Source: Bacteroidia bacterium
GTDB lineage: Bacteria; Bacteroidota; Bacteroidia; J057
Length of the DNA: 64,000 nucleotides
Reading direction: 5' to 3'
NCBI GenBank assembly: GCA_030430205.1
Contig: JAUIGE010000024.1
Coordinates: 1 to 64,000, forward strand
Positions within the stretch are counted from its first letter, which is position 1, and each line of letters opens with the position of its first letter. Positions 5,935 to 45,139 of the stretch are shown here, piece after piece. The position numbers were made by a program, and so were the translations under genes. The notes under the pieces were generated by a model. The model did no database searches, was not told the origin of the DNA, and worked only from the letters and a program-made list of their open reading frames with translations.

Positions 5935-5965
5935 TTTGCCTCCGAGCCTAAAATCCGTACCTTTC
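5935..5965 (+). promoter_or_regulatory. Bacteroidota-type promoter for the alpha-2-macroglobulin gene
   Basis: TTTG at 5935-5938, a 19-bp spacer, then TACCTTTC at 5958-5965 (7 of 8 to TAnnTTTG). The start codon is 37 bp further at 6003, leaving room for a short leader. Confidence 0.55.
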
Positions 5966-6002
5966 AACAAGCTAAAATTCCAACCATTAAAAGCCATTTC
6001 TC

Positions 6003-9000
6003 ATGACAAAACGAGCACCGATCTATCTTTTGATTGGCCTGGGTATCGTCGTTTTTCTCAGCGCCCTGGTCCTGTATGTGACGCCCCTCAAGGCGAGCAA
6101 AACCCTCCCTATCTACAATCCTGCTTTTGACAATTATTTGTCCGCATTTACCGCAGGTGAAATTTCAAAGCAGTCTGATGTCAAGGTTCGATTTGCTTCT
6201 TCTATCGTTGACTCGACCCTGGTCGGTCAGGAGATCAGCAAAAAACACTTTGAAATCGAGCCGGGCATCGATGGCCAACTCCGCTGGCTTGATACAAGAA
6301 CGCTCATTTTTGAGCCTTCCAGACCCTTCCAATCCAACGCACTCTATACCGTCCAATTGGCCATGGATGCCTTTATTGCCGATATAGAGCCCAGCCTTAC
6401 CCACTTCAACTTCTTCTTCCGGACCCAGCCCCAGAGCTTCAAAATTGAAATGCTGGGCAATGAAAGTTCGGAAGATGAGCTTTCCCGTTACCAACTCGTC
6501 AAAGGCCAGATCCGCTCGCTGGATATAGAGCCCGTTGAGAATATTGAAAAAATGGTTCAGGCTACGCTTGAAGGGAAAAATCGCAAAATCCATTGGAAAC
6601 ACGATCCGGAGGCAAAAATTTATCTCTTCGAAATTGACAGCCTGGAGCGCCAGACCGATGCTCAAAAGCTGAACATTTCCTGGGATGCATCCATCATAGA
6701 GCTTGAAGGAAAAGGGGAAGAAAAAATCAACATTCCTGCTTTAGGCAATTTTAAAACCACTCAAATCCTCGCCTTCAACGGCAGCTCTCCCTATATTCAA
6801 ATCGACTTTTCGGAACCCCTCCAGCCGACCCAAAACCTCAATGGATTGATTCGACTGGCTCATCACGAACTCACCTATGTTATTGAGGGAAATCAGGTAA
6901 AGGTTTTTCCCAAAAGAAGGCCAAAGGGTGCAACCGAAATCGTCGTTCTTCAAGGTATTGAAAACAGAAAAGGCCATCGAAGTCAGCAGGACTTCAGGCA
7001 GACATTGACTTTTGAAGAAGCAAAACCGGAACTTAAACTTGTCGGCAATGGGGTCATCATCCCCCAATCCCAAAGCCTACCTTTTATTTTTGAAGCCATA
7101 GGCCTAAAAGCAGTCGATGTGCGTGTGATCCGGATTTTTGAGGATAATATCCAGCAATTTCTGCAAATCAACCGCTTAGGGGAAGAAAATGAACTGAAAA
7201 GAGTCGGCAGAATCGTTGCACGCAAAGAGATTTCGCTGGACAAAAATCCCCAAACAGACCTTCGTCAATGGAATACCCATGCCATTGACCTGAGCAGCCT
7301 GATTCAAACACAACCCGGAGCCATCTACCAGGTGGCCATCGGTTTCAAAAAAGCCTATTACGTAGATGCCTGCGAAGCAACTCCAACGCCTGTCACCCAA
7401 AACATGAAAGCAGAAAAGGACATGCTTGCTGTGGATTGGGATTGGGATACCTATGAGGAATCCGGTGAGGACAGCTACTGGGACTACTGGAGTGAAGATT
7501 ACAGATATGACCACAGAAATGATCCTTGTAAAGACGCATACTACAACTCAGGCAGAGTCATCAAACGAAATGTCCTCGCCTCTGACCTGGGGCTGATTGC
7601 CAAAAGAGGAGATGATGAGATGTTTATCGCTGTCACCGATCTCAAAACAACTGACCCCAAAGCCAACGTTCAGTTGGAAGTCTACAACTACCAGCAGCAA
7701 TTGCTTACCACGGTTAGCACAAATGAAGACGGAATTGCCAATATCCGCTTAAGCAAAGCACCCTATCTGCTGCTTGCCAGATCAGGCAAACAGAGAGGCT
7801 ACCTTCGTCTGGACGATGGAAGTTCTCTTTCTCTCAGCCGCTTTGATATTCAGGGCGTTAGCTATCACAAAGGCATTAAAGGATACCTATATGGAGAAAG
7901 GGGTGTCTGGCGACCAGGTGATGAAATTTTTCTCAATTTCATCCTCGAAGACAAAAACAAGAGTCTTCCTTCAGCACATCCACTCGTCTTCGAATTATTT
8001 AATCCCAAAGGTCAAAGAGTTGACAACATCATCAATACCTCCGGCACAGGAGGAATTTACAGCTTCACAACCCAAACAGCTCCTGATGCGCCTACCGGAA
8101 ATTATCTGGCCAGGGTAAAAGTAGGAGGTGCTACTTTTGAAAAAAGCCTGAAAGTTGAGACCATTGTTCCTAACAGGCTAAAACTCCTTCTGGATTTTGG
8201 CGTGGATGCCCTTTCCAATGAAACCCGCAGTCTTAAGTCAGAGCTTGCCGTTACCTGGCTTCATGGTGCGATTGCCAGAAATATGGATACAGAGGTGAAG
8301 GTTACCTTAAAACAAGGTCATACAAGTTTTGCCAAATACCTTGATTACCATTTTAATGATCCTACGAGGAGCTTCAATTCGGAGGAAAAAGTGTTGTTCA
8401 CAGGTAAATTGGATGAAAATGGAAAGGCACAGATTCCCTGTAATATACAAGCTTCCGGCGCTGCGCCTGGCCAGCTTGTCGCCAACTTTGTGGGCCGGGT
8501 GATGGAGCCGGGAGGCAATGCCAGCACCGACCGCTTTAGCCTGCCTTTCCATCCTTATGATGTGTATACAGGGGTAAAACTACCTAAAGGGGACGCCGCC
8601 AGAGGCATGTTACTGACCGATATAGATCACGAAGTAAAAATTGTAACTCTTGATAACAAAGGAAACCCCGTGTCCAAAGAAGGAGTTCGTGTCAAATTAT
8701 ATAAGCTCAATTGGAAATGGTGGTGGGACAAATCTTCTGATGAAGACCTGGGCGCATATATCGGCCGGAGCCATAGCCGCCTTTTACAGGAAGGCACCAT
8801 CAACACAGTTAATGGCAAAGGAAGCTGGAAGCTTAGGATCAACTACCCCCAATGGGGCAGGTACCTCGTACGGGTGGAAGAACCCGGTGGCCATGCCACC
8901 GGACAGATTGTCTACATCGACTGGCCCGGTTGGGCCGGGCGTGCCCAAAGCGACAACCCTGGCGGTGCCAAGATGCTTGTCTTTGCTTCAGACAAAAGCA

Positions 9001-11576
9001 AGTATCAGGTAGGCGAACAAGCCACCTTAACTATCCCCAGCGGACAGGCAGGCAGAGCCCTGGTCAGCATTGAGTCCGGCAACAAAGTTTTAAAATCCTA
9101 TTGGGTGAATGCCAGCAAGGGCAGCACACAGTTCAGCTTCCCTGTTACGCAGGAGATGGCTCCCAATATTTATGCGCATGTAAGCCTGCTCCAGCCTCAT
9201 GCCCAAACCCAAAATGACCTTCCCATGCGCCTCTATGGCGTGGTGCCGATCGAGGTAGAAGACCCCGAGACCCGCCTCCAGCCCGTCCTCAGCATGGCTG
9301 ACCAATTGGCTCCCATGGAGGAAGTGGTAATCAAAGTAGGAGAGAAAAACGGCGGGCCAATGACCTATACTGTTGCAGTAGTTGACGAAGGCCTTTTGGG
9401 CCTGACCCGCTACAAAACGCCCAACCCCCATGGTCATTTTTACCGCCGGGAGGCCCTGAAAGTCAAAACCTGGGACCTCTTTGATGATGTGGTAGGCGCC
9501 TATGGCGGAGAACTTACAAGCATGTTGAGCATTGGTGGTGATGGTGATGCTTTGGGAGCAGATGGCAAAAAGCCCGACAGGTTCAAACCTGTGGTCAAAG
9601 TACTGGGACCTTTCCAGCTAAAAGCCGGAGAGACACAAACCCATCGTTTTGTCATGCCCAATTACATAGGTGCTGTCCGCACCATGCTTGTAGCTGCTCA
9701 TGAAGGAGCCTATGGCCAGGCTGAAAAGGAAACACCTGTCAAGAAACCCTTGATGGTTTTGGGCACACTTCCCAGGGTTTTGGGCCCAGGAGAAGAATTT
9801 CAATTGCCAGTCAGTGTTTTTGCATTGGAAGAATATGTCAAAAATGTAAGCATACAGGTGGAATCAAACGGCATGTTTGAAGCCATCGGCAACAAAAACC
9901 AGAGCATGAACTTTGCTGATATCGGAGAGCAAATGGCCACCTTTGGCCTGCGAGTCAAAGAAGAGATCGGCACCGGGCATGTTAAAATCACCGCTCGCAG
10001 CGGCTCCGAAGTCGCCGTGTATGAGACGGATATCCTTATCCGTCCATCCAATCCCCGTCTCTACCGAAGCTTTGCTTCGGTGATACAGCCCGGAGAAAGT
10101 TGGAAGCGCCGCTTCCGTCCCGTAGGCATGACTGGCACCAACAATGGTGTATTGGAAATCACCAATATTCCTCCGCTTAACCTCGGGAAGCGATTGAAAT
10201 ACCTGATTCGCTATCCTTATGGCTGTATAGAGCAGACTACTTCCAGCGTATTTCCCCAGGTTTACCTGAGTAGCTTGATGGAACTGGATGAAAAGCAGAA
10301 AAGCGATATTGACAACAACATCCGCGCGGGCATCATCCGCCTCCAAAGTTTCCAGTTGGGAAGTGGTGGAATGGCCTATTGGCCGGGTAATGGGGAAGCC
10401 AATGAATGGGGAACCAATTATGCAGGAAACTTCCTGCTGGAAGCCCAGGAAGCAGGCTATAGCATTCCTTCAGATTTCCTCCAGAAATGGGTCAACTTCC
10501 AGACGGAAAAAGCCCGTAACTGGTCCTACTCCAACCAAAAAGGAAATGATGTCACCCAGGCTTATCGCCTCTACCTGCTGGCACTTGCCAGAGCTGAGGA
10601 CATGGGTTCTATGAACCGGATGCGCCAGCAGACGAGTCAATTGTCCATACAGGCCAAATGGTATCTGGCTTCAGCTTATCACTTGATTGGCCAGGGAGAT
10701 ATGGCCAAAAGACTCAGCAAAGACCTGAGCAAAGAGGTAGGAGATTATGTAGAACTCAGCAATACTTTTGGTTCCTCGGTTCGAGATAAAGCCCTGATTG
10801 TCCAGGCCTTAGCTGCGATGGATCGCAGGGATGAAGCAACCGGTCTTGTCCAGCAATTATCGGATCGATTGTGTGATGAGGCATGGATGAACACCCAGGC
10901 GACAGCTTATTCTCTGGTAGCCATGGCAAAATACATAGGGAAGGCGGGTATTTCCAGAAAAATGCTTTTCTCCTATGCCATAAATGACGGCAAATTGCAG
11001 AGCACAAGCTATGAAAAAGCTATCTGGCAAACAGAAATAGGTTCGGAAAAAGATGGGCAGGTAGAGGTCAGGAATACAGGTAAAGGATTGTTATTCACAC
11101 GCTTAATCCTCGATGGAATTCCATATCGGGAAGATACAGCTATGGTAGCAGCAGGGTTGAAGCTGGATGTAGCCTATGTAGATCAGGGGGGGAAAGCTAT
11201 GGATGTCAGCCGCATCCGTCAGGGGGAAGACATCACTGCAATTGTGACTATTACACACACAGGAAGGACCGGAAAATATGAAGAACTTGCCCTGGAGCAA
11301 GTCTTTCCGGCTGGTTGGGAGATACACAACCACAGGCTGGATGGAAGCGATCCCGGAGGCAACACGCCCGAGTATCAGGACATCCGTGATGACCGAGTCT
11401 ATAGCTTTATGGACCTGGCGCAAGGCGCCAGCACAAAAATCCATATTGACCTAACGGCCAGCTATTTAGGAAAATACTATTTACCTGCCGTATCCGTCCA
11501 TGCTATGTATGACAAATCCATCAATGCACGGCAGCCAGGAAAGTGGGTTGAGGTTGTTTCCCAATTAGGGAACTAA
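6003..11576 (+). CDS. Bacterial alpha-2-macroglobulin family protein
   Basis: This 1857-residue protein is a YfaS-type bacterial A2M, a periplasmic protease trap thought to protect the cell after outer-membrane breach. An N-terminal hydrophobic segment (about residues 8-27) would anchor it; there is no lipobox, unlike the E. coli protein. Macroglobulin domains follow, including the MG2 hallmark GERGVWRPGD at about 631-640. The thioester motif CIEQ begins at Cys1408 (PYGCIEQTTSS), so the covalent trapping chemistry should be intact, and the alpha-helical thioester domain follows (GGMAYWPGNGEANEWGT). The usual partner, penicillin-binding protein 1C, is not next to it or anywhere in the window. 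A Bacteroidota promoter lies just upstream. Confidence 0.93.
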   Translation: MTKRAPIYLLIGLGIVVFLSALVLYVTPLKASKTLPIYNPAFDNYLSAFTAGEISKQSDVKVRFASSIVDSTLVGQEISKKHFEIEPGIDGQLRWLDTRTLIFEPSRPFQSNALYTVQLAMDAFIADIEPSLTHFNFFFRTQPQSFKIEMLGNESSEDELSRYQLVKGQIRSLDIEPVENIEKMVQATLEGKNRKIHWKHDPEAKIYLFEIDSLERQTDAQKLNISWDASIIELEGKGEEKINIPALGNFKTTQILAFNGSSPYIQIDFSEPLQPTQNLNGLIRLAHHELTYVIEGNQVKVFPKRRPKGATEIVVLQGIENRKGHRSQQDFRQTLTFEEAKPELKLVGNGVIIPQSQSLPFIFEAIGLKAVDVRVIRIFEDNIQQFLQINRLGEENELKRVGRIVARKEISLDKNPQTDLRQWNTHAIDLSSLIQTQPGAIYQVAIGFKKAYYVDACEATPTPVTQNMKAEKDMLAVDWDWDTYEESGEDSYWDYWSEDYRYDHRNDPCKDAYYNSGRVIKRNVLASDLGLIAKRGDDEMFIAVTDLKTTDPKANVQLEVYNYQQQLLTTVSTNEDGIANIRLSKAPYLLLARSGKQRGYLRLDDGSSLSLSRFDIQGVSYHKGIKGYLYGERGVWRPGDEIFLNFILEDKNKSLPSAHPLVFELFNPKGQRVDNIINTSGTGGIYSFTTQTAPDAPTGNYLARVKVGGATFEKSLKVETIVPNRLKLLLDFGVDALSNETRSLKSELAVTWLHGAIARNMDTEVKVTLKQGHTSFAKYLDYHFNDPTRSFNSEEKVLFTGKLDENGKAQIPCNIQASGAAPGQLVANFVGRVMEPGGNASTDRFSLPFHPYDVYTGVKLPKGDAARGMLLTDIDHEVKIVTLDNKGNPVSKEGVRVKLYKLNWKWWWDKSSDEDLGAYIGRSHSRLLQEGTINTVNGKGSWKLRINYPQWGRYLVRVEEPGGHATGQIVYIDWPGWAGRAQSDNPGGAKMLVFASDKSKYQVGEQATLTIPSGQAGRALVSIESGNKVLKSYWVNASKGSTQFSFPVTQEMAPNIYAHVSLLQPHAQTQNDLPMRLYGVVPIEVEDPETRLQPVLSMADQLAPMEEVVIKVGEKNGGPMTYTVAVVDEGLLGLTRYKTPNPHGHFYRREALKVKTWDLFDDVVGAYGGELTSMLSIGGDGDALGADGKKPDRFKPVVKVLGPFQLKAGETQTHRFVMPNYIGAVRTMLVAAHEGAYGQAEKETPVKKPLMVLGTLPRVLGPGEEFQLPVSVFALEEYVKNVSIQVESNGMFEAIGNKNQSMNFADIGEQMATFGLRVKEEIGTGHVKITARSGSEVAVYETDILIRPSNPRLYRSFASVIQPGESWKRRFRPVGMTGTNNGVLEITNIPPLNLGKRLKYLIRYPYGCIEQTTSSVFPQVYLSSLMELDEKQKSDIDNNIRAGIIRLQSFQLGSGGMAYWPGNGEANEWGTNYAGNFLLEAQEAGYSIPSDFLQKWVNFQTEKARNWSYSNQKGNDVTQAYRLYLLALARAEDMGSMNRMRQQTSQLSIQAKWYLASAYHLIGQGDMAKRLSKDLSKEVGDYVELSNTFGSSVRDKALIVQALAAMDRRDEATGLVQQLSDRLCDEAWMNTQATAYSLVAMAKYIGKAGISRKMLFSYAINDGKLQSTSYEKAIWQTEIGSEKDGQVEVRNTGKGLLFTRLILDGIPYREDTAMVAAGLKLDVAYVDQGGKAMDVSRIRQGEDITAIVTITHTGRTGKYEELALEQVFPAGWEIHNHRLDGSDPGGNTPEYQDIRDDRVYSFMDLAQGASTKIHIDLTASYLGKYYLPAVSVHAMYDKSINARQPGKWVEVVSQLGN

Positions 11577-41572: not shown

Positions 41573-41759
41573 TCCGGGAGATTTTATTCGGCTGTATTAT
41601 TCTTAATTTTGTGAGAACAAGCTATTCAGTTGGGAACCACATCTTAGGCGTTTTGTTCTTGAAATAAGCATTTGGGGTATTTAGAAATGTAAGATTGACC
41701 AGAAACATGCATCAATGGATGCATCCGAAAGTGCTTTATTTGACCTAAGAAGAAGTTCC

Positions 41760-43640
41760 ATGAATCCAAAATCCATTTTAATTGCCCTTTTCCTGTTAGC
41801 AATAAGTTGCAACTTGCTGCAAGCTAGCATTTTCCCTATTCCCCTGTCTCAACGAATCTCCGAATCCAGCCAAATCGTTTTGGCAAGTTTGGAGAGCCAG
41901 CATGCTTTTCGCAGTGAAGCGGATCAGCAAATCTACACCCTGAATGTCCTCCATATCACTGCATACCTCAAAGGTATGCGAGGAGAGGAGCGCCTGGGTC
42001 TCATTTCCATTGGCGGAAACCTGGAAGATGAAGGTCAAATCACTTATCCCAGTGTGCGGCTGCAAAAAGGAAAGCAATATGCTTTGTTTCTGGAGCCGGA
42101 TCCTTTGGGTCATAGCCATCCGGCTTTCCCTGAATTGCTCCAATTAAGGGCATACGCCAGCGTGCAGGGGGCCTTGCCCCTGGAGGGTGGTTTTTACCAG
42201 GACCTGCTGTATGATGCTTTTGCGGAAAGGTATTTGCTGCAAAAAGTGTTTGAAAAAACAGGAGAAGCGCCCTTGCGAGCTGATGGAAAAGCTTATCAGC
42301 TTCAGGCTTATACCAGCTCAACCTCTGCGAGCCGCATGCTCGCCATCAGTTCGGTCAGCTCCGTCTCTGCCACAGGCATAGCGGCTGGTACGATAGACGC
42401 AGGCCGCGTCCTGAGCATCCAGGGAATGGGTTTTGACCCCTTTCTGATAGGTGCTACGGGAAGTTCTGTGGAATTTTCCAGTGCATGGGACGGAGGAATT
42501 TCATTCATTGGACTGGATGATAAAGACACAGACATCCTGCTGTGGTCCGACACAGAAATCCGTGTCAAGATTCCCGGCGACGCCGGTACGGGGCTTGTAC
42601 GGCTCAATATCTTTGCCAACGGCAGTGTCACCCACCCCATCACAGTAGATTGGGCTGTCATCCCCAAATACAGCATCCACCAAAGCTGGACCGATACCAT
42701 GCGCCAAAGGCTTGAACTGGTCAAGGCAGGCAGCGTCAACAACGATGGCTATGCCTTTCAATTTGACAATACCTACTGGACCAACTTACCAGCGGTCAAC
42801 GCTTTTCTGAACGCTGTACAGACCTGGCGCTGCAATACCTTTATCAACCTGAGTTTTGAGACCTCCCCTAATAATGCTGTTTATGTAAGCGGCAGCGGCA
42901 GCCAGGTACGTTTTGCCAGTTCTGCGACCCTGGGAGCAGGCGTATTGGCGCAGGCTCACTTGCGCTTTCGCAATACCTTCAGCGCCTTGCTTCCCTCCTG
43001 TATTCAACAGAATACCCTCTGGTATGTCACTGACATGGACATTTTATTTGTGGACAATCCGGCACCTTTTAGCTGGAATTTTGGTCCCAACCCTACGCCT
43101 GCCAATAGCTACGACTTTGAATCTGTAGCGCTGAAGATGGTAGGCCTCGCCAGTGGCCTGGGCTACATCAACCAAAGCGGCACCGCTTTGTATTTCAGCC
43201 TGCCTGATGGGCAGGACATCCGCAACCTCAGCGCCAACGAGATCGTGGCGGGAACCCACAAGGTGACGCATAGCGTCACGGTCACTGCATGCAAAACCCA
43301 ACTGGCCGGTAACGGCCTGATGGTCGCCATCCCAGGCGCTCAGGATTGTGTGCTGGATCTCTATCCGCCAGTTGGCGGACCAGATAGCTGGGTTGAAAAA
43401 CCCTTTGTTCTCCAACTGGATAAAACAAAAAATCAACTCCTTGTTGAATGGAAATCCCGGAGCATTAGCTCCCTTGGGTTGACCCTGCTTGACTTGCAGG
43501 GCAGGCGGGTCTTTCAGGAAGCATGGATACAGGAAGGAGAAGGCATCAGGGGATTGGATATATCAGGCCTGGCTGAGGGGATTTATGTTTTCCGCCTTGT
43601 TGCAGGAGAAGATTCCTGGCATGGGAAGTTTTTTAGGTAA
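41760..43640 (+). CDS. T9SS type A protein with TIG domain and degenerate matrixin-like domain
   Basis: The start at 41760 (MNPKSILIALFLLAISCNLL) gives a signal peptide; the ATG at 41715 adds 15 non-signal residues. After an N-terminal domain, residues about 195-305 form an IPT/TIG domain (AGTIDAGRVLSIQGMGFDP). Residues about 305-510 align with the secreted matrixin-like metalloproteases of this phylum: VQTWRCNTFINLSF, then DMDILFV...WNFGP and YDFESVAL. Where those enzymes have HELGHxxxLGH, this one has KMVGLASGLGY from Lys459: all three zinc His and the catalytic Glu are lost. The end is a type A sorting domain (LTLLDLQGRRVFQ, GIYVFRLV). It is probably a binding protein derived from a protease. 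A TAATTTTG -7-like element is at 41604. Confidence 0.8.
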   Translation: MNPKSILIALFLLAISCNLLQASIFPIPLSQRISESSQIVLASLESQHAFRSEADQQIYTLNVLHITAYLKGMRGEERLGLISIGGNLEDEGQITYPSVRLQKGKQYALFLEPDPLGHSHPAFPELLQLRAYASVQGALPLEGGFYQDLLYDAFAERYLLQKVFEKTGEAPLRADGKAYQLQAYTSSTSASRMLAISSVSSVSATGIAAGTIDAGRVLSIQGMGFDPFLIGATGSSVEFSSAWDGGISFIGLDDKDTDILLWSDTEIRVKIPGDAGTGLVRLNIFANGSVTHPITVDWAVIPKYSIHQSWTDTMRQRLELVKAGSVNNDGYAFQFDNTYWTNLPAVNAFLNAVQTWRCNTFINLSFETSPNNAVYVSGSGSQVRFASSATLGAGVLAQAHLRFRNTFSALLPSCIQQNTLWYVTDMDILFVDNPAPFSWNFGPNPTPANSYDFESVALKMVGLASGLGYINQSGTALYFSLPDGQDIRNLSANEIVAGTHKVTHSVTVTACKTQLAGNGLMVAIPGAQDCVLDLYPPVGGPDSWVEKPFVLQLDKTKNQLLVEWKSRSISSLGLTLLDLQGRRVFQEAWIQEGEGIRGLDISGLAEGIYVFRLVAGEDSWHGKFFR

Positions 43641-43727
43641 AGTATGCAGTTGGCAGTTGGCAGTTGGCAGTATGCAGTATGCAGTTGGCAGTATGCAGTT
43701 GGATTCATTAACTGCATACTGCCAACT
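43641..43727. repeat. cagttggcagtatg repeats with 18-bp hairpin
   Basis: Tandem units agtatgcagttggcag run from 43641 to 43701. The last unit, agttggcagtatgcagtt (43683-43700), has a perfect 18-nt inverted copy at 43710-43727. It sits between two convergent genes, where the hairpin may terminate transcription. Confidence 0.8.
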
Positions 43728-43744
43728 AACCACTGTGAACTATC

Positions 43745-45139
43745 CTAAATGTGGATCACCTCATCATAAGCAGCAGCTGCTGCTTCCATGACAGCCTCTG
43801 ACATGGTGGGGTGCGGATGCACTGCTTTGATGATCTCATGGCCTGTGGCTTCCAGTTTGCGGGCGACAACGACCTCTGCAATCATTTCGGTCACGCCTAC
43901 GCCCATCATGTGTGCGCCGAGAAATTCCCCGTATTTCGCATCAAAGATCACTTTGACAAAACCTTCTTTGTTGCCGCCGGCACTGGCTTTGCCAGATGCA
44001 GAGAAGGGAAATTTCCCCACTTTGATTTCCATTCCGGCTTCAACTGCCTGGGCTTCCGTCATGCCGACAGATGCGACCTCAGGTATGGTGTAGGTACAGC
44101 TGGGAATATTTTCATAATCCATGGCCTCTACCTCCATTCCCGCGATTTTTTCTACACAAGTGATGGCTTCATGAGAAGCCACATGCGCCAGAGCAGGCCC
44201 GGGAACCATATCTCCAATGGCGTAAACGCCTTTTACATTTGTCTGGTAAAAATCATCCACCTGGACCAGCCCTCTATCTGTTTTGATGCCTAAAGCCTCC
44301 AGGCCCAGGTTCTCGATATTCGCAGTAATGCCCACTGCTGAAAGGAGAATATCTGCTTCCAGTTTTTCTTCTCCTTTTTTGGTCTTGACAGTAGCGACTA
44401 TTCCTTTTCCGGAAGTATCAACGGCAGTCACTTCTGCGCTGGTCATGATTTTCACACCACGCTTTTTGAAACTACGCGCCATAGCCTTGGATATGTCTAC
44501 GTCCTCGCGAGGCAGGATTTCGGGCATAAACTCCACCACAGTTACTTCTGTGCCCATGCTGTTGTAGAAATAGGCAAATTCCATCCCAATGGCTCCTGAG
44601 CCAACGATAACCATGGATTTGGGCTGCTCAGGAAGCGACATCGCTTCGCGATAGCCAATGATCTTCTTGCCGTCTATCGGCATAGCAGGCAGCGCGCGTG
44701 AGCGCGCGCCGGTGGCCAGGATGATGTGCTTCGCACTATAGGTCTCACGCTTGCCATCGGCATCGGTGACTTCGATAGTTCTGCCAGGCTGAAGCCTGCC
44801 AGTGCCCATGATGGCGTCTACTTTGTTCTTTTTGAAAAGAAACTGGATACCATTGCTCATGCCGCTGGCGACGTTTCTGCTTCGCGCAATAACAGCAGGA
44901 AAATCGTGTTTGAAGCCGGAAACCTCTATACCATAATCGCTGGCATGGGTTATTTTGTCCATGACATCGGCACTTTTCAGCAGGGCTTTGGTAGGGATAC
45001 AGCCCCAGTTGAGGCAAATGCCTCCGAGCGATTCGCGCTCTATTACAGCTGTTTTCATTCCTAATTGAGAAGCACGAATAGCTGCTACATATCCTCCCGG
45101 TCCACTTCCGATTACGATCAGATCATATTGAGTTGCCAT
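43745..45139 (-). CDS. lpdA: Dihydrolipoyl dehydrogenase
   Basis: The 464-residue flavoprotein is the E3 component of 2-oxoacid dehydrogenase complexes and the glycine cleavage system; it reoxidises dihydrolipoamide with NAD+. FAD-binding GSGPGGYVAAIRA opens the protein, the redox disulphide is in GGICLNWGCIPT (Cys42 and Cys47), the NAD site is VGSGAIGMEFAYFY, and the C-terminal base is in HPHPTMSE. All are intact and the length is normal. It is divergent from folC, with an 81-bp shared region. Confidence 0.97.
   Translation of the reverse strand: MATQYDLIVIGSGPGGYVAAIRASQLGMKTAVIERESLGGICLNWGCIPTKALLKSADVMDKITHASDYGIEVSGFKHDFPAVIARSRNVASGMSNGIQFLFKKNKVDAIMGTGRLQPGRTIEVTDADGKRETYSAKHIILATGARSRALPAMPIDGKKIIGYREAMSLPEQPKSMVIVGSGAIGMEFAYFYNSMGTEVTVVEFMPEILPREDVDISKAMARSFKKRGVKIMTSAEVTAVDTSGKGIVATVKTKKGEEKLEADILLSAVGITANIENLGLEALGIKTDRGLVQVDDFYQTNVKGVYAIGDMVPGPALAHVASHEAITCVEKIAGMEVEAMDYENIPSCTYTIPEVASVGMTEAQAVEAGMEIKVGKFPFSASGKASAGGNKEGFVKVIFDAKYGEFLGAHMMGVGVTEMIAEVVVARKLEATGHEIIKAVHPHPTMSEAVMEAAAAAYDEVIHI

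Follow-up and report, generated by a model that had tools for sequence, protein, structure and literature searches.

We analyzed a 64,000-nucleotide stretch of the Bacteroidia bacterium assembly GCA_030430205.1 (contig JAUIGE010000024.1, positions 1 to 64,000), referred to as the window herein. An open frame at 41760-43640 on the forward strand encodes a 626 aa protein with a predicted matrixin fold and no zinc site, and a full-length ortholog was found in the other same-genus species searched. An upstream ATG at 41715 is also in frame with this ORF, with no stop between the two. A promoter-like candidate, TAATTTTG at 41604, was set aside since it rested on one match to a consensus. Right after the stop codon of the gene lies a short tandem repeat (43646-43702) consisting of 8.1 copies of a GCAGTTG unit, and by eye an apparent inverted copy of it precedes the convergent neighbor. 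Based on its sequence, we take this neighbor (43748-45139, reverse strand) to be a dihydrolipoamide dehydrogenase gene; it served as a syntenic anchor and stands outside the mechanism proposed below.

The gene product consists of a signal peptide, an N-terminal domain, a TIG domain, a matrixin-fold domain and a C-terminal type IX secretion system (T9SS) tail, all encoded on the forward strand. The signal peptide (residues 1-22; 41760-41825) was recognized by eye from a Lys followed by a hydrophobic core ending in LLQA, and an equivalent leader is found in homologs. Within this leader, 41805-41813 reads AISC, where Cys17 makes a weak lipobox-like site, and a lipoprotein-like cut there may take the place of one after A22. 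The N-terminal domain (residues 23-168; 41826-42263), possibly TIMP/agrin-NtA-like, was delimited from the secondary structure of the model, and its possible identity comes from Foldseek matches and weak Pfam NtA matches. The TIG (Ig-like) domain (residues 207-288; 42378-42623) matched Pfam PF01833 with 18.5 bits, under the cut-off of 20.9, and TIG was matched at E<=0.1 in 83 of the 88 members of alignment A2, which holds the window's protein and 87 relatives. The matrixin-fold domain (residues 298-504; 42651-43271) was placed by VIA-align to karilysin 2xs3 and by the top Foldseek match, karilysin 4in9. Lastly, a T9SS type A sorting domain spans residues 557-620 (43428-43619). The Pfam and NCBIfam matches to this tail fell under their cut-offs (19.3 bits versus the Pfam curated cut-off of 27), and the tail of the same-genus ortholog passed it with 36.7 bits. 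The window's genome encodes SprA, and its T9SS tails that pass the cut-off number at least 150. With a sorting domain present and a T9SS in the genome, the protein is, as read from its sequence, a probable T9SS type A cargo, and both secretion and surface attachment are likely.

The original prediction had taken the stretches YDFESVAL and WNFGP as the mark of a matrixin-like region and had proposed that HELGHxxxLGH was replaced by KMVGLASGLGY from Lys459 onward. Both stretches are present and conserved (W439, D452, F453 and E454). Upon alignment, residue 459 was indeed Lys, and KMVGLASGLGY (residues 459-469; 43134-43166) fell on the HExxHxxxxxH motif of the relatives, in register on either side, with DFESVAL before the motif and R488 and C511 after it. 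The three zinc His and the catalytic Glu are lost from all four columns in both the window's protein and its same-genus ortholog. Since H, E, H and H occupy these columns in all 119 zinc-bearing rows, the loss of the motif is not a matter of chance. At the Met-turn position (43188-43190) the window's protein has Leu477, and Met is found in all 118 zinc-bearing rows that have a residue there. The ortholog, with the motif TAIGRAMGIGY, retains the Met-turn Met, which implies that the site kept changing after the two species split. Pfam M10 gave no match to the window's protein at E<=10 and matched 86 of the 87 other rows of A2 at E<=0.1, indicating that the relatives are matrixin-type proteins. 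The features of an active M10 peptidase, namely HExxH...H with its Glu, the Met-turn Met and a match to PF00413, are thus all missing from a protein whose homologs carry the catalytic motif, as is characteristic of a pseudoprotease. Lacking both the His triad and the catalytic Glu, the protein is not expected to act by metzincin catalysis.

We collected 143 distinct hits, where distinct means neither identical to nor contained in another row and near-identical rows are counted apart. After exclusion of three pieces that lacked the motif region, the motif was intact in 137 of the 140 distinct rows in which it could be read, the window's protein included. The three exceptions were this protein, the syntenic ortholog from the same genus and a contig-edge fragment that stems from a different family of the order. 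The contig scan (278 stretches encoding a relative, 79 distinct loci kept) was seeded with a pattern that included [HK][EM] for the first two residues of the motif, which biases its count of 87 intact rows out of 87; for rows from the whole-genome searches alone, a set that overlaps the contig-scan rows, 58 of 61 were intact. Two of the searches yielded loci (30 and 19) for just a portion of what they had matched, so there may be further zinc-less members. With the thresholds applied, the family was matched in 20 of 40 relatives (the window's own genome included), with about half of the listed matches covering the tail only, and in 73 of 395 genomes of the class. Within the taxonomic family, nine of 13 genomes gave no match to the protein-family profile at E<=1e-8. 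The form seen in the window is known from two species only. The contig-edge fragment (L025/L122, at the end of contig C218 of genome G016) reads HQLGRAHLLGA, and its frame runs off the contig. Judged by this sequence, it looks like a second, independent loss of the zinc site; the same genome also carries an intact member on contig C229.

The surroundings of the gene and its phylogeny were then used to place the loss. The genomes searched included a single other species of the genus, and there the ortholog immediately precedes a convergent dihydrolipoamide dehydrogenase gene that is 79% identical to the one in the window. Past this gene, five more gene matches follow in the same order in the same-genus genome, and the upstream sides differ. 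In Phaeodactylibacter luteus, a relative lies on the same side of the anchor gene, with one gene between, and retains both HELGHAVGLGH and the Met-turn Met. At this P. luteus locus (L048), the genes at 5944-8064 and 8618-9979 are adjacent and by eye have nearly identical C-terminal tails, which suggests that this region was recently duplicated or converted. In a tree of 122 rows from which the motif columns had been removed, the two zinc-less proteins were joined with an SH-aLRT of 100, the tree being one made by a quick method without bootstrap, with P. luteus among the rows flagged for odd composition. The pair was nested in a 15-row clade (starred in the tree), the remaining 13 rows of which are zinc-bearing. 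The simplest account is that the zinc site was lost on the stem leading to the window's genus. The stem branch of the pair is long (0.59 versus a median end branch of 0.39), as either relaxed or adaptive change could produce.

An AlphaFold2 model of residues 20-515 built from 88 rows gave a pLDDT of 88.7 and a pTM of 0.91; apart from the window's protein, the input alignment consisted of zinc-bearing relatives and hence favors their fold. The best PDB match of this model in Foldseek was karilysin 4in9 (E 3e-5). By VIA-align, the model and karilysin 2xs3 superposed over 152 residues with a Z of 15.5 and an rmsd of 2.6 Å, and vertebrate MMPs gave a Z of about 14. For the zinc-bearing P. luteus relative, the model reached a Z of 15.7 to karilysin, versus 15.5 for the window's protein. 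In the models, the catalytic-like domain is therefore of the matrixin/metzincin type, and the predicted fold is unchanged by the loss of the zinc site. The structure prediction bears out the original view of a kept matrixin fold, and the TIG domain and sorting tail named there were detected at scores under the Pfam cut-offs. The predicted fold is like that of the catalytic domains of Tannerella forsythia karilysin and vertebrate MMPs (PF00413; MEROPS M10A). In contrast to these, the window's protein lacks the zinc ligands, the catalytic Glu, the Met-turn Met and a Pfam M10 match, and it carries the extra N-terminal and TIG domains. The zinc-bearing Bacteroidota relatives (for example P. luteus and the Chitinophagaceae loci L037-L044) share the layout of N-terminal domain, TIG and matrixin domain at 24-35% identity, but unlike the window's protein they retain HExxHxxxxxH and the Met.

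An intact predicted fold could also mean that the zinc site has moved and that other residues of the matrixin domain bind a metal, such that catalysis persists; other loops could in principle supply the ligands. We consider this highly improbable, since within the domain the potential ligands common to both orthologs amount to one His (504), three Cys and eight Asp/Glu. With a single shared His, no new His cluster common to both orthologs is possible, and the Cys residues, D427, D452 and E454 are likely structural, as they occur commonly in zinc-bearing relatives or members of the clade as well. The sequences of the pair thus argue against a functional zinc site elsewhere in the domain, in line with the original prediction that the entire site was lost.

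We then turned to whether the gene is maintained. Across 608 aligned codons (the ortholog being read from the 12th codon of its frame), the two same-genus proteins have an identity of 40.5%. The five neighboring gene pairs are 41-78% identical, which makes the zinc-less gene narrowly the least conserved of the six; with an identity just under that of the lowest neighboring pair, the gene evolves fast. The dN/dS ratio was dropped because synonymous sites are saturated: for each of the six gene pairs, dS either had no defined value or exceeded 2.8. An identity below all five neighboring pairs and a long stem branch are what a decaying gene would also give, one in which the protease had become dispensable and the frame survived by chance or for a short term. 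The further loss in the contig-edge fragment elsewhere in the order and the genomes of the taxonomic family in which the profile found no match point the same way. However, despite the saturated synonymous sites, both zinc-less species have a frame that is open at full length, with 626 aa in the window's protein and 632 aa in the ortholog when counted from its first Met, and free drift over such a distance should bring stops. Moreover, of 65 highly conserved columns outside residues 459-480, 50 are kept in the window's protein and 47 in its ortholog, with gaps taken as losses, and inside these residues each of them loses eight of ten. The losses are concentrated at the active site with Fisher p values of 0.0008 for the window's protein and 0.0024 for the ortholog, but as the region was picked after the motif had been seen and the rows are related, we used the counts in place of the p values. 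The sorting tail of the ortholog, above its cut-off, likewise speaks against decay.

Comparison of the domains gave a similar picture. The zinc-less orthologs are identical at 100 of 210 positions in the matrixin domain, 40 of 90 in the TIG domain and 55 of 142 in the N-terminal domain, so that conservation between them is highest in the matrixin domain. The resulting matrixin/N-domain identity ratio of 1.23 compares to a median of 1.52 for 74 zinc-bearing pairs of the clade; it lies under that of 65 of these pairs, which would be in keeping with decay, and nine of the 74 have a ratio as low or lower. These identities suggest that the matrixin domain is constrained, perhaps somewhat relaxed. 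On balance, decay of the zinc-less gene is unlikely.

The N-terminal domain offers a lead that was absent from the original prediction. Foldseek searches with the model of the window's protein returned the agrin NtA structures 3i70, 1pxu, 1jb3 and 1jc7 (E 5e-4 to 9.3e-4, prob 1.00) as well as TIMP-2 1br9 (E 3.6e-3, prob 1.00), with TMt values of 0.43-0.54 and matches that presumably fall on the N-terminal domain. No NtA or TIMP chain was among the best 50 Foldseek matches listed for the P. luteus model. In an alignment of 55 N-terminal domains (A4), Pfam NtA was weakly matched in nine members, with a best E of 0.0037 and the window's protein not shown among the nine, and Pfam TIMP in one (E 0.19). 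When the N-domain profile was searched against PDB sequences, no TIMP or NtA chain was found and one chance match appeared at E 0.51. Sequence profiles gave weak Pfam NtA/TIMP matches and not a proof of homology, and we note the possibility that this family has an agrin-NtA/TIMP-like domain at its N-terminus. For the models of the window's protein and of the P. luteus relative alike, the alignment with the karilysin zymogen 4r3v begins at model residue 1. In these models, the N-terminal segment may therefore be placed where the propeptide of karilysin sits, near the cleft.

These matches raise the possibility that the protein acts as an inhibitor or decoy, with its N-terminal TIMP/NtA-like domain or its dead matrixin domain binding other metalloproteases or their substrates. 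In line with this, the matches to agrin NtA and TIMP-2, the weak Pfam NtA matches in relatives and an N-terminus that may be near the cleft are joined by two further metzincin-like proteins in the same genome (L001 and L002), which carry an intact HEVGHxxGLxH. TIMP inhibition requires a free N-terminal Cys that chelates the zinc of the enzyme. However, there is no Cys at the likely mature N-terminus of the window's protein (A22/S23, a cut site judged by eye). Many zinc-bearing relatives have no Cys there either, and we therefore rejected, as a rule for the family, the idea that an N-terminal Cys serving as a TIMP-like ligand was lost along with the zinc site. The results of the N-domain profile against the PDB and of the P. 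luteus model also weigh against an inhibitor or decoy, as does the finding that no other family member was detected in the genome at E<=1e-8. Hence, we regard this role as improbable. A broader version is also rather unlikely: the family would be a widespread Bacteroidota single-chain matrixin with a built-in TIMP-like regulator, the N-terminus of which lies in the active-site cleft, and the dead-enzyme version of this genus, with its TIMP-like and matrixin parts retained, would have turned from a self-inhibited MMP-like protease into a non-catalytic inhibitor, receptor or matrix protein.

Taken together, we consider it probable that the gene encodes a secreted, T9SS-sorted pseudoprotease, the fold of which is kept, probably as a non-catalytic binding or scaffolding module. 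The ancestor would have been a member of a Bacteroidota matrixin-fold family with a zinc site, composed of an N-terminal domain, TIG, matrixin domain and C-terminal module. On the stem of the genus, the three zinc His and the catalytic Glu would have been lost; without these ligands, the domain would hold no catalytic zinc and would cleave no peptide by the metzincin mechanism. The folded domain would then have been retained for binding or scaffolding at the cell surface or in a secreted matrix. Within the old active-site strip, five of 11 positions are identical between the zinc-less orthologs, versus 100 of 210 across the domain. As this strip is not specially conserved, the old cleft is probably no dedicated binding pocket, and contacts would more likely be made through other faces of the matrixin domain or through the TIG or N-terminal domains. 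The original prediction of a matrixin fold that has lost its zinc site, rather than a decayed gene, is supported by the predicted structure, the homologs, the open frame of the ortholog and the synteny, and its proposal of a protease turned into a binding protein is the likeliest reading; the lack of activity, the secretion route and the binding role are what we infer.

Loss of catalytic residues on a metallopeptidase fold has precedents. Pseudo-metallopeptidases are well known, including inactive ADAMs and M14 pseudo-carboxypeptidases, according to a review (PMC11266112) in which the word matrixin does not occur. A survey of Pfam families (PMC3650047), which may include M10 cases, describes zincins whose HExxH is substituted, CLCA among them, from every domain of life. 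These examples resemble the window's protein in what they have lost, but they belong, as far as these texts go, to different families. The same survey names Lys and Arg as preferred substitutions of His in zincins with an altered HExxH, and the window's protein has Lys at K459 and the ortholog Arg at 463. In Listeria, a metzincin is reported to be accompanied by a separate TIMP-like lipoprotein (PMC8235301). There, two genes and an active metzincin are involved, whereas the possible TIMP-like module of the window's protein is in the same chain. Among the matches listed for the literature searched, which lay mostly outside subscription journals, we found no report of a zinc-less bacterial matrixin. 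Zinc-less zincins are thus already known in other families, and the present protein adds a bacterial matrixin-type case.

The zinc-less ortholog pair and the near-syntenic zinc-bearing relative in P. luteus provide a clear before-and-after case, which makes it possible to test what role a matrixin fold plays once catalysis is gone. Should the N-terminal domain truly be TIMP/NtA-like, the family would also shed light on the silencing of bacterial MMP-like enzymes and on the age of this pairing of folds.
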